The position numbers and the translations under genes were made by a program. The notes under the pieces were generated by a model. That model did no database searches, was not told the origin of the DNA, and worked only from the letters and a program-made list of their open reading frames with translations. From NCBI GenBank assembly GCA_030613045.1, contig JAUWMS010000020.1, positions 1-12,570 on the forward strand: a DNA stretch of 12,570 bases, in the 5' to 3' direction. Numbering within the stretch: the first letter of the stretch is position 1; each line of letters begins with the position of its first letter. This document shows positions 4,607 to 9,101 of this stretch, in pieces. The stretch is from Candidatus Latescibacterota bacterium (GTDB lineage: Bacteria; Latescibacterota; 4484-107).

Positions 4607-4627
4607 TTTTACGCCTCACGTTTTACG
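4607..4627. repeat. Heptamer repeat TTTTACG-CCTCACG-TTTTACG
   Basis: Three consecutive 7-bp units overlap the 3' end of mnmA, covering its stop codon and the preceding base pair. On the coding strand this reads as CGTAAAA-type heptamers. It belongs to the same class of short tandem repeat seen elsewhere in this window. Confidence 0.65.
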
Positions 4628-5696
4628 CGGTTTCTTCTCTGTCAGCGGCTTCGATAATTCCACCGCCTACCACCACATCGCCCTCATAAAACACCACCGA
4701 TTGGCCGGGCGTGACGGCCCATTGGGGGGTATCGAAGCGTACGCGGACGTTGCCGTTATCCAACGGCGTGATGGCGGCCGGAGCGGCTTCGTGGTTGGAG
4801 CGGATCTGGGCGCGCGCGCACAACGGCGCTTTTGGCTGTTGAACTGCGATCCAGTTCAGGTGCTCGGCAATAAGTTCCCGGCTCAACACGTCGTCTCGTT
4901 CGCCCACCCACAGCGTATTGGTGGAGGGATCTATCCGCGTGACGTAGATCGGATGGCCCACCGCAATCAGGCCCTTCCGCTGTCCGATGGTATAAAATGC
5001 AAGACCCTGATGGGTTCCAAGGACACGCCCCGCCTGATCTTTAATCGGCCCCTTCTCAAATTTTTCTCTAAGCCTTTCGCGCAGGAAGCGTCCGTAATCG
5101 TTATCGGGGATAAAGCAAATCTCCTGACTCTCGCGCTGGAGGGTGCCCTTCAGATGGAGAACCCTCGCTCGGTCCCGAACGTCCGATTTTCGCATCGCGC
5201 CGATCGGAAGCAAGGCTCGGGAGAGCACCTTTTGATCCAATTTCCACAGCACGTAGGATTGGTCTTTGGTCGGATCCGCGCCGCGCAGGAGGATGAAACG
5301 ATTCATGGAAGCGTCCCATCGGACCCGGGCATAGTGCCCCGTAGCCACAGTTCGCGCATTTAGGGCCTCGGCCTGTTCGAGCAGGATCCGCCACTTGATG
5401 CGGGGGTTGCAGAGGACGCAGGGATTGGGCGTGCGCCCGCTCGCATACACTTCGATGAACTCCCGAATTACCAAGGTCTCGAACTCGTTCCGGAAGTCCA
5501 CCACATTGTGCGCGATCCCCAAGGTCTGACAAATTCTCCGGGCCGCGTCTATGGCCTCCCCGGCGCAACCGCTCTCGTCGTCGAACAGGCGCATCGTAAT
5601 CCCGACCACGCGATAGCCTTGCTCTTTGAGCAGGACGGCTGCTATGGAGCTGTCCACGCCGCCGCTCATAGCGAGGAGGACGGTTTCTTGAGTCAT
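4623..5696 (-). CDS. mnmA: tRNA-uridine 2-sulfurtransferase MnmA
   Basis: MnmA (357 residues) adds sulfur at C2 of wobble uridine 34 in tRNAs for Lys, Glu and Gln, using ATP to adenylate the base and persulfide sulfur that comes from IscS. The PP-loop SGGVDSS is at 11-17, the catalytic Cys C93 lies in TPNPCVLCN, and the second catalytic Cys C194 lies in SQEICFIPD. KDQSYVLW (144-151) and the C-terminal beta-barrel with YTIGQRKGL complete the family pattern. The start chosen is the ATG at 5696, which has AAGGA 6 nt upstream. An upstream ATG at 5702 is too close to that site. A longer in-frame extension to 5786 would translate a low-complexity hexamer repeat and is rejected. It is the last gene of the iscRSU-mnmA group, 161 bp after iscU, so the sulfur donor and acceptor are encoded together. 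Confidence 0.96.
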   Translation of the reverse strand: MTQETVLLAMSGGVDSSIAAVLLKEQGYRVVGITMRLFDDESGCAGEAIDAARRICQTLGIAHNVVDFRNEFETLVIREFIEVYASGRTPNPCVLCNPRIKWRILLEQAEALNARTVATGHYARVRWDASMNRFILLRGADPTKDQSYVLWKLDQKVLSRALLPIGAMRKSDVRDRARVLHLKGTLQRESQEICFIPDNDYGRFLRERLREKFEKGPIKDQAGRVLGTHQGLAFYTIGQRKGLIAVGHPIYVTRIDPSTNTLWVGERDDVLSRELIAEHLNWIAVQQPKAPLCARAQIRSNHEAAPAAITPLDNGNVRVRFDTPQWAVTPGQSVVFYEGDVVVGGGIIEAADREETA

Positions 5697-5717
5697 CGCC
5701 ATTCCTTGTTGAAGGCA

Positions 5718-5795
5718 GGTAAAGGCTGGTAAAGGTAGAGGTAAAGAAAAAGGCAGAGGCAAAAGCAAAGACAGAGGCAAAAGCAAAGACAGAGA
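5718..5795. repeat. Purine-rich hexamer repeat tract (13 units of 6 bp)
   Basis: The stretch divides without remainder into thirteen 6-bp words of the type GGTAAA, TAAAGG, CAGAGG, CAAAAG and CAAAGA. It includes a perfect 18-bp duplication (5755-5772 and 5773-5790). It fills most of the iscU-mnmA gap. On the mnmA coding strand it is pyrimidine-rich and sits just upstream of the mnmA ribosome binding site. Confidence 0.85.
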
Positions 5796-5857: not shown

Positions 5858-6235
5858 TCAGGCGGGCGGCGCGTTTTTGGTCCGATAGTCCTCTATGGCT
5901 TTGTGCAGCGCATCCGCGGCGAGATTGGAGCAGTGCATTTTGTTGGGGGGCAATCCGTCCAGGGCTTCCGCCACATTTTTTCGGGTGACCCGTTCGGCCT
6001 CGTCGAGGGTTTTCCCCATAACCAATTCGGTCATCATGCTGCTGGTGGCAATGGCCGCGCCGCACCCGAAGGTCTGAAACTTGACGTCCTGAATGCGGTC
6101 GTCCCGCACCTTGATGTAGAGTTTCATGATATCCCCACACACGGGATTTCCCATCTCGCCTATTCCGTCCGCATCGGGGAGTTGTCCCACGTTGCGGGGA
6201 TGTTGAAAATGATCCATCACTTTTTCACTGTACAT
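5858..6235 (-). CDS. iscU: Fe-S cluster assembly scaffold IscU/NifU N-terminal type
   Basis: This 125-residue scaffold protein assembles 2Fe-2S clusters from sulfur delivered by IscS and hands them to target proteins in the cytoplasm. It has the three invariant cysteines C33 (NPVCGD), C58 (FGCGA) and C102 (MHCSNL), plus the conserved Asp D35. The opening MYSEKVMDHFQHPRNVG is the standard family N-terminus. It ends soon after the third Cys region and so lacks the ferredoxin-like and NfU domains of full-length NifU. The ATG at 6235 has GAGGGG 7 nt upstream; an upstream TTG in frame would place that site inside the gene and is rejected. It follows iscS after 157 bp, a gap mostly filled by a palindromic repeat, and precedes mnmA. 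No iscA, hscA, hscB or fdx gene is present between these genes. Confidence 0.96.
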   Translation of the reverse strand: MYSEKVMDHFQHPRNVGQLPDADGIGEMGNPVCGDIMKLYIKVRDDRIQDVKFQTFGCGAAIATSSMMTELVMGKTLDEAERVTRKNVAEALDGLPPNKMHCSNLAADALHKAIEDYRTKNAPPA

Positions 6236-6259
6236 TTTAATTCCCCTCAATTTTTATTG

Positions 6260-6380
6260 CACCGCAAAGGCGCAAAGGACGCGAAGAAAAGACAGTGGGA
6301 GGTAAAGGGTGGAGCGGAGGAACTCAATCTCAACTGTCACTTTGTTTGAATTTCTTTGCGCTCTTTGCGCCTTTGCGGTG
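6260..6380. repeat. Palindromic intergenic repeat, copy 1 (iscS-iscU gap)
   Basis: The left arm (6260-6289, beginning CACCGCAAAGGCGCAAAGGA) is complementary to the right arm (6351-6380, ending CTTTGCGCCTTTGCGGTG) at 27 of 30 positions. The arms are themselves built from GCAAAGG-type words. The 61-bp centre is unrelated to the centre of copy 2 at 8052-8189, apart from short GGTAAA-like words. It lies within the transcribed iscS-iscU interval and would form a long stem in mRNA. Confidence 0.88.
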
Positions 6381-6392
6381 GGATTCTATTTC

Positions 6393-7547
6393 TTACGTCA
6401 GCGGCGACATGGCACGCAGGCGTTCGATGATGGGAGGCAGCACTTCGGACACGGTTTCTATATCCTCCAGGGTGTTGGTGCGCCCCAGGCTGAAGCGCAC
6501 GGAACGCGGGGGCAACTCCGGGATGATGCCCATGGCGTTCAGCACGTGGGAAGATTCCAGCGATCCGGAGGTGCAGGCCGACCCACTGGCCACCGCGATG
6601 CCCTCCATATCGAGGCTGAGGATGATGGACTCGCCTTCGACGGCGGCAAAGGAGAGGTTCAGGGTGCTTGCGATGCGTTGGGTCGGATGCCCGTTCAAAA
6701 AAACCCGTTCGATGCGGTCGGTGATCTTTTTATGGAGCGCGTCCCGCAGCTGGGTCAGGCGCTCGGACTCCTCAGCGCGTTCGGTTTCCGCGATCTCGGC
6801 GGCCTTCCCCAAGCCGACGAGGCTCGCCAAATTTTCCGTCCCGGCTCTGCGACCGTGCTCGTGATGGCCGCCGTGGATCAGCGGCGTGATCTTCGTGCCC
6901 TTTCGGATGTAGAGCGCGCCAACGCCTTTGGGTGCATAGATCTTGTGGCCCGACAAGCTCAGAAGATCCACGTTCAGTTCATCCACGAGGATGGGGAGTT
7001 TCCCGGCGCTCTGGCCCGCGTCGGTGTGGAAAAGGACGCCGTGTTCCCGCGCGATGCGTCCGATCTCCGGGATGGGCTGAATGGTGCCCACCTCGTTGTT
7101 CGCGTGCATAATCGTGATGAGGATCGTGTGGTCCGTGATGGCTTTTCGGACGTCGTCGGGATTCACCCGGCCGGTTCCATCCACCGGAAGATAGGTCACG
7201 CGGAAACCCTCTTTCTCCAGATAGCCGCACGAGGCCAACACCGCGTGATGCTCGATCTGGGTGGTGATCAGGTGATCGCCTTTGTTCCGATAGCTGTGCG
7301 CCACCCCTTTGATCGCCATGTTGTCCGCCTCGGTCCCGCTTCCGGTGAAACAGACTTCGCGCTCCCTGGCTCCGAGCAAGTGGGCGATCCGGCCCCGCGC
7401 CCGTTCCAGCGCTTCCTTCGCCTCGCGACCGAACGCGTGGATGCTGGAGGGATTGCCGAAAACCTCGCTGAAATAGGGCTGCATCGCGGCCAGCACGCGG
7501 GGATCCACCGGCGTGGTGGCGTTGTGATCCAGATAAATTTTTTTCAT
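6393..7547 (-). CDS. iscS: Cysteine desulfurase IscS
   Basis: This 384-residue PLP-dependent class V aminotransferase-fold enzyme converts cysteine to alanine and carries the released sulfur as a persulfide to IscU and MnmA. Key features are IYLDHNATTPVDP near the N-terminus, TGSGTEADNMAI (68-79), IEHHAV (98-103), HANNEVGTIQPI (148-159), HTDAGQSAGK (174-183), the PLP lysine K202 in SLSGHKIYAPKG, and the persulfide cysteine C325 in SGSACTSGS. The ATG at 7547 has GGAGGA 6 nt upstream; an in-frame TTG 30 nt further up is rejected. It lies 57 bp downstream of iscR, and the gap contains a perfect 11-bp hairpin. Its length and C-terminal Cys loop fit the IscS/NifS group rather than SufS. Confidence 0.97.
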   Translation of the reverse strand: MKKIYLDHNATTPVDPRVLAAMQPYFSEVFGNPSSIHAFGREAKEALERARGRIAHLLGAREREVCFTGSGTEADNMAIKGVAHSYRNKGDHLITTQIEHHAVLASCGYLEKEGFRVTYLPVDGTGRVNPDDVRKAITDHTILITIMHANNEVGTIQPIPEIGRIAREHGVLFHTDAGQSAGKLPILVDELNVDLLSLSGHKIYAPKGVGALYIRKGTKITPLIHGGHHEHGRRAGTENLASLVGLGKAAEIAETERAEESERLTQLRDALHKKITDRIERVFLNGHPTQRIASTLNLSFAAVEGESIILSLDMEGIAVASGSACTSGSLESSHVLNAMGIIPELPPRSVRFSLGRTNTLEDIETVSEVLPPIIERLRAMSPLT

Positions 7548-7604: not shown

Positions 7605-8027
7605 TCAATCCTTTGTTTCCGCTATTTCTAGGATCAGATCTTGGAGTGTGGTCTGGTCGAACAGTTCCTCGAGCTTTCGGCTCAACCGCTTCCAGAAGAG
7701 TTTGGTGACGCACTGATCCACGATGTCGCAGGCCTCGTCGGAGACATAGCAGTCGCACAGCCCGATGGGGCCTTCCAGCACGCGGACGATGTCGCCGATG
7801 CGGATGCGATCCGCGGGTTTCTTCAGCAGGTATCCGCCTTTGGGACCTCGAATGCTCTCCACCAACTCCGCTTTTTTGAGCCGGACGAGCAGTTGCTCTA
7901 AGTAAGATATGGGGATGGCGTGACGCGCCGCGATGTGACGGATCGTCACCGGGCCTTCGCCGTAATGGGAAGCCAGCTCGAACATCGCCTTGATGCCGTA
8001 TTTGCCTTTGGTGGAAAGACCGACCAT
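7605..8027 (-). CDS. iscR: Rrf2-family Fe-S cluster-sensing transcriptional regulator IscR
   Basis: This 140-residue Rrf2-family regulator has an N-terminal winged helix-turn-helix (KGKYGIKAMFELA, TIRHIAARHAIPISYLEQLLVRLKKAELVESIRGPKGGY, about 6-66) and a cysteine cluster C91, C93, C100, C106. C93-x6-C100-x5-C106 corresponds to the three cluster-binding cysteines of E. coli IscR, but the fourth ligand of that protein, a histidine three residues after the last Cys, is K109 here; C91 could replace it. The ATG at 8027 has AGGGA about 7 nt upstream. A longer in-frame reading to 8264 would translate the palindromic repeat and the promoter and is rejected. It is the first gene of iscRSU-mnmA. Its promoter overlaps a sequence fitting an IscR type 1 site, so it is probably a repressor of its own operon when loaded with a 2Fe-2S cluster. 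Confidence 0.93.
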   Translation of the reverse strand: MVGLSTKGKYGIKAMFELASHYGEGPVTIRHIAARHAIPISYLEQLLVRLKKAELVESIRGPKGGYLLKKPADRIRIGDIVRVLEGPIGLCDCYVSDEACDIVDQCVTKLFWKRLSRKLEELFDQTTLQDLILEIAETKD

Positions 8028-8051
8028 TTCATATCCCTTTTTTATAGTGCG

Positions 8052-8189
8052 CACCGCAAAGGCGCAAAGGACGCAAAGAACTTCACACAAGGCAAAGGTT
8101 GAGGTTAAGGTTAAAACCACCCAACCCAGTCTTGTCCGGGCCTTACCCTCGCGCCGCCTTTTCTTTGCGTCCTTTGCGCCTTTGCGGTG
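8052..8189. repeat. Palindromic intergenic repeat, copy 2 (iscR leader)
   Basis: The left arm (8052-8080, beginning CACCGCAAAGGCGCAAAGGA) and the right arm (8161-8189) are perfectly complementary over 29 bp. The 80-bp centre contains hexamer-like words (GGCAAA, GGTTGA, GGTTAA, GGTTAA). It lies between the predicted iscR start of transcription near 8205 and the iscR start codon at 8027, so it should be transcribed as a long stem in the iscR leader. The arms match copy 1 (6260-6380) closely; the centre does not. Confidence 0.92.
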
Positions 8190-8211
8190 AGAAGTTTTTG
8201 GGTGCGTCTCA

Positions 8212-8240
8212 AATATACTAATCTTGACCATTTTTGTCAA
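8212..8240 (-). promoter_or_regulatory. Sigma70-type promoter of iscR operon
   Basis: On the minus strand a perfect -35 box TTGACA (8240-8235) is followed after exactly 17 bp by TATATT (8217-8212), five of six matches to the -10 consensus. Transcription would begin near 8205, giving an iscR leader of about 178 nt. The promoter overlaps the proposed IscR operator. Confidence 0.85.
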
Positions 8241-8244
8241 GTAT
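8220..8244 (-). promoter_or_regulatory. IscR type 1-like operator overlapping the iscR -35 box
   Basis: The 25-bp site reads, on the minus strand, ATACTTGAC, then 7 bp (AAAAATG), then GTCAAGATT. As I recall it, the E. coli type 1 IscR consensus is ATASYYGAC-N7-GTCRRSTAT. All nine bases of the left half and the first six of the right half fit, with identical 9-7-9 spacing. The core dyad CTTGAC-N7-GTCAAG is perfect. Overlap with the -35 box fits repression by cluster-loaded IscR. Confidence 0.78.
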
Positions 8245-8276
8245 AAATTTAATCGGTGCTGCATTTTCTTTTTGAC

Positions 8277-8305
8277 TTGACTTTATGCGCGAAAAGTTGT
8301 ACTTT
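8277..8305 (+). promoter_or_regulatory. Possible promoter of pduL
   Basis: TTGACT (8277-8282) lies 17 bp before TACTTT (8300-8305) on the plus strand, leaving a leader of roughly 58 nt to the pduL start. The -35 is good (five of six), the -10 is poor. It is divergent from, and about 32 bp away from, the IscR site. Confidence 0.35.
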
Positions 8306-8369
8306 GTGCTGCTCTAACTTCAGTCTGAGAAAATTCTAATATTTTGTTGGCGGGATTGCGAGGAGCGGT

Positions 8370-9101
8370 ATGGATCTTTCCATTGCAAGAAGAAGTCCGG
8401 CCTGTCAGGAATGCGGGCGGTGCTTCGATTTGCAGGATGCGACGGACACCGAGACCATGGTGGAACGGATCGCCCGGGAGGTGATCCAGCGGGTTCGCGA
8501 GCAGGCGGGTCTCCCGGAGGCGGGAGACAAAAAGGTCGTGGTGGGGGTTTCGGTGCGGCACGTGCATCTGACGCGCGATGCGCTGGGGACGCTGTATGGG
8601 CCCGGGCACGAATTGAAAAAGATGCGGGATCTGTATCAGCCGGGGCAATTTTCGGCCGAGGAGACCGTGGCGCTCGTGGGTCCCCGGATGCGGACCATCG
8701 AGCGGGTGCGGATATTGGGGCCTTTGCGGGATCATACCCAGGTGGAGCTTTCCCGCACGGATGGTTTTACGTTGGGTCTGGAACTTCCGGTGCGGCATTC
8801 GGGCGACATCGCCGGCACGCCGGGGGTGACGCTGGTGGGGCCTTACGGTGCGCTCACCTTGCGGGAAGGGGCGATCCGCGCGGACCGGCACGTGCATCTC
8901 TCCCCGGAGGATGCGCAGCGTCTCGGCTTCGTGGACGGAGAGTTGGTGAAGGCGGTGGTGTCCGGGGATAAACCGTTGACGTTGGGGAACGTGCGGATTC
9001 GGGTGTCGCCGGGACTGAAACTGGAATTGCATATTGATACCGACGATGCCAATGCAGCGGATGTTTCGTGCGGGGATCTGGTGGAGTTGGTGAAGGGGTG
9101 A
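8370..9101 (+). CDS. pduL: Phosphate acyltransferase (phosphotransacylase) of the PduL family, with BMC-type N-terminal extension
   Basis: PduL enzymes interconvert acyl-CoA and acyl-phosphate. This 243-residue protein has two beta-barrel halves with the paired metal-binding histidines VSVRHVHLT (H64, H66) and ADRHVHLSP (H174, H176), plus RHSGD (142-146) and the C-terminal signature LELHIDTDDANAAD (218-231, with H221). Before the catalytic core is an extra 50 residues. Residues 28-45 (start TETMVERIAREVIQ) form an amphipathic helix with hydrophobic residues spaced every 3-4 positions, resembling the encapsulation peptides that direct PduL into bacterial microcompartments. Ahead of that, C12, C15 and C18 make a CxxCxxC motif, unusual for this family. 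The ATG at 8370 has AGGAG 5 nt upstream; a later start at 8457 would keep the helix but lacks a good ribosome site. No microcompartment shell gene is in the window. It is divergent from iscR. Confidence 0.9.
   Translation: MDLSIARRSPACQECGRCFDLQDATDTETMVERIAREVIQRVREQAGLPEAGDKKVVVGVSVRHVHLTRDALGTLYGPGHELKKMRDLYQPGQFSAEETVALVGPRMRTIERVRILGPLRDHTQVELSRTDGFTLGLELPVRHSGDIAGTPGVTLVGPYGALTLREGAIRADRHVHLSPEDAQRLGFVDGELVKAVVSGDKPLTLGNVRIRVSPGLKLELHIDTDDANAADVSCGDLVELVKG

Follow-up and report, generated by a model that had tools for sequence, protein, structure and literature searches.

Does the inverted repeat that lies over the promoter of an iscR-like gene in a Candidatus Latescibacterota genome serve as the operator of the adjacent regulator, and what kind of circuit would it then belong to? 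We analyzed this locus in a 12,570-nt stretch of contig JAUWMS010000020.1 (assembly GCA_030613045.1), here called the window, together with related genomes. The site is composed as follows:

8220..8244, minus strand: predicted type 1 IscR-like operator (consensus match; conserved in relatives)
8235..8240, minus strand: −35 hexamer TTGACA, overlapping the left half-site
8212..8217, minus strand: −10 hexamer TATATT, with the right half-site inside the 17-bp spacer

On the minus strand, positions 8220–8244 read ATACTTGAC-AAAAATG-GTCAAGATT, a 25-mer (ATACTTGACAAAAATGGTCAAGATT) that has the 9-7-9 architecture and covers the −35 box of a TTGACA-17-TATATT promoter (8240–8212), just as the original prediction had described. 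When ATACTTGACAAAAATGGTCAAGATT is compared with the type 1 consensus ATASYYGAC-N7-GTCRRSTAT, which was verified against E. coli K-12 DNA, two mismatches are found; the near-consensus fit claimed earlier is thereby upheld, with the count corrected from 15 to 16 of 18 half-site positions. The iscR upstream region of E. coli K-12 contains two matches to the same consensus, with one and two mismatches and starts 25 bp apart, and the window site consequently fits as well as one of that pair. No second dyad was found near the window's box, the next best match in 350 bases having seven mismatches. Scanning both strands of 7800–8600 returned this promoter as the sole sigma-70-like site, where shuffling predicts 0.6. 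The observed dyad and promoter upstream of the iscR-like gene are thus confirmed as real, and as judged by the hexamers, transcription would start near 8205 and produce a leader of roughly 180 nt. At three or fewer mismatches, 0.10 chance matches are expected at window composition and 19 of 200 shuffled sequences contained at least one, so that an isolated match in the window is suggestive only, not decisive.

The promoter reads leftward into an operon with the order Rrf2 regulator, NifS/IscS-type desulfurase, NifU_N scaffold and MnmA, and is flanked by a divergent neighbor:

7605..8027, minus strand: IscR-like Rrf2 regulator, 140 aa, with C91, C93, C100 and C106, and Lys109 at the E. coli His107 position (domain and profile scores, alignments)
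6393..7544, minus strand: cysteine desulfurase, NifS/IscS type (TIGR03402, 565.9 bits, cut-off 530.75)
5858..6250, minus strand: Fe-S scaffold with NifU_N domain, IscU/NifU_clost type (TIGR03419, 213.7 bits, cut-off 187.9)
4623..5786, minus strand: tRNA 2-thiouridine synthase MnmA, start uncertain (domain and profile matches)
8370..9101, plus strand: phosphate propanoyltransferase (PduL/PTAC family), divergent neighbor (domain and profile matches)

The start of the regulator is placed at 8027, as a 91%-identical relative (P0002) is likewise 140 residues long and begins MVGL; the longest open frame, starting at 8264, was set aside on the same ground. The protein scores 137.2 bits against the Rrf2 family (PF02082, cut-off 30) and 131.1 bits against the IscR equivalog TIGR02010, below its cut-off of 207.55, and is therefore filed as IscR-like. 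The IscS and IscU equivalog models fall short in the same manner (TIGR02006, 468.1 of 643.2 bits; TIGR01999, 151.5 of 192.4 bits). The operon had been named iscRSU: a desulfurase and a scaffold are indeed present, but by NCBIfam cut-offs they are of the NifS/NifU_clost type, and the regulator lies under the IscR equivalog cut-off. On the divergent side, the PduL-type phosphotransacylase (8370–9101) has an N-terminal extension with a CxxCxxC motif (ACQECGRCF), and a block at about 8263–8296 upstream of its gene is conserved with the congener L032 and could hold that gene's promoter.

The original prediction pointed to relatives for conservation of the dyad and its spacing, and both are conserved in the congener (L032/L003) and in four further genomes (G015, G007, G011 and G018). 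The nearest named relative, Candidatus Latescibacteria bacterium 4484_107 (L032), encodes a regulator 91% identical to that of the window; its 25-mer differs by one central base, its promoter is unchanged and its box lies at −318 upstream. An alignment of 115 bases between the congeners shows one difference in the 33 bp of box and promoter versus nine in the other 82, a pair too close to carry much weight alone. Four genomes of f5, another family of the same phylum, encode a similar regulator. The full-length proteins (G015, G007, G011) are 45–48% identical to the window's and all contain an LCDC motif; in G018, where the contig end cuts the gene before the CxC motif, 66 residues match at 61% identity. 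Their boxes comprise a two-mismatch site (L004, in G015), two three-mismatch sites 25 bp apart (L005, in G007), a three-mismatch site with a four-mismatch site 25 bp upstream (L006, in G011), and a site with one mismatch in a shorter 14-position dyad (L197, in G018). All four run into TTGACT-17-TATATT in the same phase as in the window. Altogether, six genomes were found to have this type of regulator (the CxC pair being visible in five), and in each of them the box stands upstream of the regulator gene in this phase to TATATT; in two of the six a second box lies 25 bp upstream, the same distance that separates the pair in E. coli. G002 and G004, of the same class, have a different Rrf2 protein with a best upstream match at five mismatches, and were set aside.

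To place the box among Rrf2 loci at large, the best-scoring 150 loci were taken (a selection from all matches); their 150 frames correspond to 137 different regulators, three of which have upstream regions shorter than 350 bases. Twelve of the 137 regions contain a box at three or fewer mismatches, compared with a mean of 0.35 and a maximum of 1 in 40 shuffled sets; these 12 rows are not independent, two being congeners and three coming from one family. Because TTGAC doubles as a −35 box, the right half-site was tested separately: given a left half of at least 8/9, a right half of at least 7/9 follows in 11 of 41 Rrf2-upstream cases versus 3 of 282 elsewhere (Fisher p 1e-8; loci not chosen for the pattern). 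These results bear on the suggestion that the box is nothing but a strong promoter with a chance resemblance to a half-site in its spacer. TTGAC does provide half of the match, and both congeners also have partial dyads at two other promoters, those of hrcA and a beta-helix protein gene; the enrichment of the right half, together with recurrence in all six genomes that encode such a regulator, makes the suggestion highly improbable. One of the three cases away from Rrf2 upstream regions, at position 354 of L093, is a type 1-like box with TTGACA-17-TATGAT. It heads a gene group (serine-acetyltransferase-like, iscR-like, desulfurase) whose arrangement suggests that this lineage controls cysteine supply and cluster assembly together.

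A dyad search in 13 genomes, mostly picked for having a box, gave no sign of a wider regulon. With ACTTGAC-N7-GTCAAGT, the operator is the best genome-wide match in G000 (the window's genome) and in G001. The best match, being first among the matches listed and with ties possible, lies upstream of an iscR-like gene in six genomes (G000, G001, G007, G015, G018, G250); in the other seven (G002, G004, G011, G157, G271, G324, G346) the best among the matches listed is not at an iscR gene. The window's genome holds 57 matches to the shorter dyad versus 109 for the reversed control, and 13 versus 19 matches to the type 1 consensus (at three or fewer mismatches); the shorter dyad is rarer than its reversed control in 11 of the 13 genomes. 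As there is no genome-wide excess of the dyad, we claim no wider regulon. Two-mismatch sites upstream of hrcA (L212/L216) and of the beta-helix protein gene (L211/L215), kept between the congeners, look like promoters with a chance partial dyad and were not counted. The hrcA promoter carries, in both Latescibacteria genomes (L212 at 2040, L216 at 2046), a conserved partial dyad ACTTGAC-N7-TTCAATT over its −35 box.

In a tree of 138 rows, to which E. coli IscR was added, 12 of the 13 box rows fall into one 46-row clade that includes E. coli IscR (support 96/96), and among the 92 rows outside it a single one, L008, has a box. By the test of three or fewer mismatches, 34 of the 46 clade rows are without a box. 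On this tree the box label requires 8 changes, whereas shuffled labels need 12.7. The regulators of the window and of f5 are sister to each other (97/84), and the window regulator shares the 46-row clade with E. coli IscR but sits on a different branch, in a tree that has a midpoint root and a bootstrap that had not settled. PMC9973013 divides Fe-S-linked Rrf2 regulators into IS1–IS6, with E. coli's group, IS1, in Proteobacteria only.

Turning to the regulator itself, residues 40–45 (SYLEQL) and R59 match those of E. coli IscR, its DNA-contact residues included. In the cluster loop, C93, C100 and C106 are equivalent to E. coli Cys92, Cys98 and Cys104, Cys91 is extra, and Lys109 occupies the His107 position. 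Ligands of the E. coli type are (Cys)3(His)1, as given in PMC4618611; the window regulator, with Lys at the His107 position, lacks this set. A different ligand set had been predicted, and the difference extends further than claimed, since a CxC pair accompanies the Lys. We followed both features in a set of 168 proteins, made up of the window's own and relatives chosen by similarity (including the best 120 of 1989) and thus no census. The CxC pair is present in 115 of the 168, of which 108 keep C106 without the intervening Cys, 5 (the window's group) have all four Cys, and 2 are, in the alignment, without both. Most CxC-type relatives accordingly have no Cys98 equivalent and a new Cys two residues before Cys92, while the window's group has both. 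At the His107 position Ser is commonest in the CxC proteins (99 of 115); among the 13 box rows, three have His (E. coli, L090, L163) and the others K, S, Y, R or F, hence the box occurs without a His ligand. Glu43 helps E. coli IscR to distinguish between type 1 and type 2 sites; the equivalent residue is Val in the L004 regulator (G015) and in 9 of the 115 CxC-type proteins. C93 and C106 (C94 and C107 in alignment numbering) are invariant in 20 and in 55 aligned sequences. The predicted cluster probably has C93 and C106 as ligands, joined by C100 and/or C91; across most of the CxC clade, the middle ligand has probably given way to the pair.

The invariant cysteines are relevant to the idea that the dyad is bound by a CymR-type repressor that responds to cysteine or sulphur status, in which case cysteine supply and not the cluster would control the operon. 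Among solved relatives, CymR structures take ranks two and four, some relatives carry the name cysteine metabolism repressor, and the CymR model NF047409 scores 119.9 bits, under its cut-off of 195. In addition, the box-bearing gene of L008 precedes a gene for a Cys/Met metabolism PLP enzyme (PF01053), and the L093 site precedes a serine-acetyltransferase-like gene. CymR chains, however, are without cysteines in the loop, whereas C93 and C106 are invariant, and the genes downstream of the window regulator encode a desulfurase and a scaffold; we regard control by cysteine supply as improbable.

More serious is the possibility that the form binding the dyad carries [4Fe-4S], or that binding needs no cluster, the GAC-N7-GTC core perhaps being general for cluster-binding Rrf2 proteins and not diagnostic of the E. 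coli [2Fe-2S] logic; in all but the cluster type this overlaps with the explanation that we prefer. The window regulator has four loop cysteines and no His, and Myxococcus RisR binds TtGAC-N7-GTCCt and may hold a [4Fe-4S] cluster, according to PMC9973013. On the other hand, E. coli type 1 is matched both by the outer bases and by the contact residues S40, E43 and Q44; these residues are not conserved in RisR, according to the same source. We judge this possibility unlikely, if clearly stronger than control by cysteine supply.

Based on the sequence of the dyad and its promoter phase, on its recurrence in six genomes and on the conserved E. coli DNA-contact residues, we propose that the dyad is very probably the operator of the adjacent iscR-like gene, and that it mediates negative feedback by the cluster-loaded regulator on its own operon. 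When Fe-S clusters are plentiful, the regulator would carry a cluster and bind the dyad as a dimer; once bound, it would cover the −35 box and the spacer and block transcription of the regulator, NifS, NifU and MnmA genes; and when clusters are short, loss or oxidation of the cluster would release the operon. In E. coli, isc is repressed by holo-IscR at type 1 sites, and the reduced [2Fe-2S] protein binds best (PMC12594620); by analogy the cluster-loaded regulator is expected over the −35 box and spacer. The earlier interpretation holds in outline, and we infer the cluster dependence of the feedback. Several observations count against the operator reading: (i) half of the dyad is a −35 box, selected anyway, (ii) the regulator lies under the IscR cut-off and has no His, (iii) the L008 box is outside the clade while 34 of 46 clade rows are boxless, (iv) there is no dyad excess, (v) the congener pair is too similar to weigh much, and (vi) in seven of the genomes searched the top dyad among the matches listed is not at an iscR gene.

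SufB/D (PF01458) was not found in any of five genomes (completeness at least 91% in three and 78% in the window's own) by a search that was positive in 14 of 14 control genomes, and the NifU_N scaffold (PF01592) is present in all five; one NifU_N scaffold was found in the window's genome, and G001 has a second. With SufB/D not found, the second branch known from E. coli, in which apo-IscR activates suf at type 2 sites, is probably absent. The loop seems to control the sole NifU_N scaffold found in the window's genome. The presence of S and U components without detected SufB/D may be compared with MIS, the minimal two-component S plus U machinery named in PMC9973013.

The predicted leader is largely occupied by a repeat, a second copy of which lies within the operon:

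8051..8192, no strand assigned: inverted-repeat element in the predicted leader (exact arms 8052–8080 and 8161–8189, 29 nt, 100% complementary)
6259..6381, no strand assigned: second inverted-repeat copy, between the desulfurase and scaffold genes (repeat match)

The repeat is dispersed (arms CACCGCAAAGGCGCAAAGGACGC...), with 138 arm-like matches in the genome versus 0 for the reversed control. The 8051–8192 copy accounts for the greater part of the predicted iscR leader and is predicted to form a very stable hairpin (leader fold −85.4 kcal/mol, z −7.58); in L032 the element occupies the same place, but the stretch between its arms is longer. The element would lengthen the predicted transcript and leave operator and promoter intact. 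A search of Rfam returned only sub-threshold MIR6462 hits over the whole length of 6259–6381 on both strands (34.5 and 30.6 bits; gathering score 96), and the MIR6462 family model may itself rest on such a repeat.

Among known systems, E. coli IscR/PiscR shares the box sequence, the R59 residue and the SYLEQL helix with the window, and its box is likewise placed at the promoter of the operon that encodes the regulator. It differs in that PiscR has two sites 25 bp apart, as in L005 and L006, where the window has one; in the ligand loop, where the window has Lys109 at the His107 position and the extra Cys91; and in setting, the window's being one of no SufB/D found, NifS/NifU-type partners and a repeat element in the leader. 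The closest solved relative is Thermincola potens IscR (PDB 4cic, 125 bits), with VTK in both and hence Lys at the His107 position. Discrimination between site types by T. potens IscR reportedly resembles that of E. coli IscR. The assignment of 4cic to T. potens follows PMC4618611; the aligned chain is without a loop cysteine (possibly an engineered variant), and its ligands are therefore not comparable here. Myxococcus xanthus RisR, as described in PMC9973013, is likewise an Rrf2 repressor of cluster-assembly operons with a GAC-N7-GTC dyad over promoter elements, but belongs to a distant group of Rrf2 proteins in which the E. coli contact residues are missing, and isc and suf are both under its control. 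The core dyad is compatible with the RisR and E. coli types alike, and the recognition residues in the window are those of E. coli IscR. A precedent is found in Rhodobacter sphaeroides IscR, which has a changed ligand set and still represses when cluster-bound; it differs in having a single Cys and another box, the Iron-Rhodo-box (PMC4618611). Among the publications listed in our searches, none names this regulator of Latescibacterota in its title or abstract opening. The regulatory kind is already known, and the variant part is the apparent rearrangement of ligands at a fixed operator, without detected SufB/D.

Finally, we tentatively suggest, at somewhat under even confidence, that in an IscR-like clade of Latescibacterota, which has no His107 ligand, the middle ligand shifted from the Cys98 position to a CxC pair formed with a Cys two residues ahead of Cys92, while the type 1 operator and its promoter phase were kept. 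The four-Cys group of the window would then be a living intermediate, and sensing chemistry would evolve independently of operator recognition, with the loop controlling the sole NifU_N scaffold found in the window's genome. The findings extend the E. coli type 1 feedback architecture to an uncultured phylum, two relatives having even the 25-bp tandem spacing, and suggest one operator code common to an Rrf2 clade that spans several families. In genomes without detected SufB/D, the type 1 branch stands isolated from the rest of the E. coli circuit, and the natural series of three Cys plus His, four Cys, and CxC plus Cys bears on how ligand changes tune sensing at a fixed DNA code.
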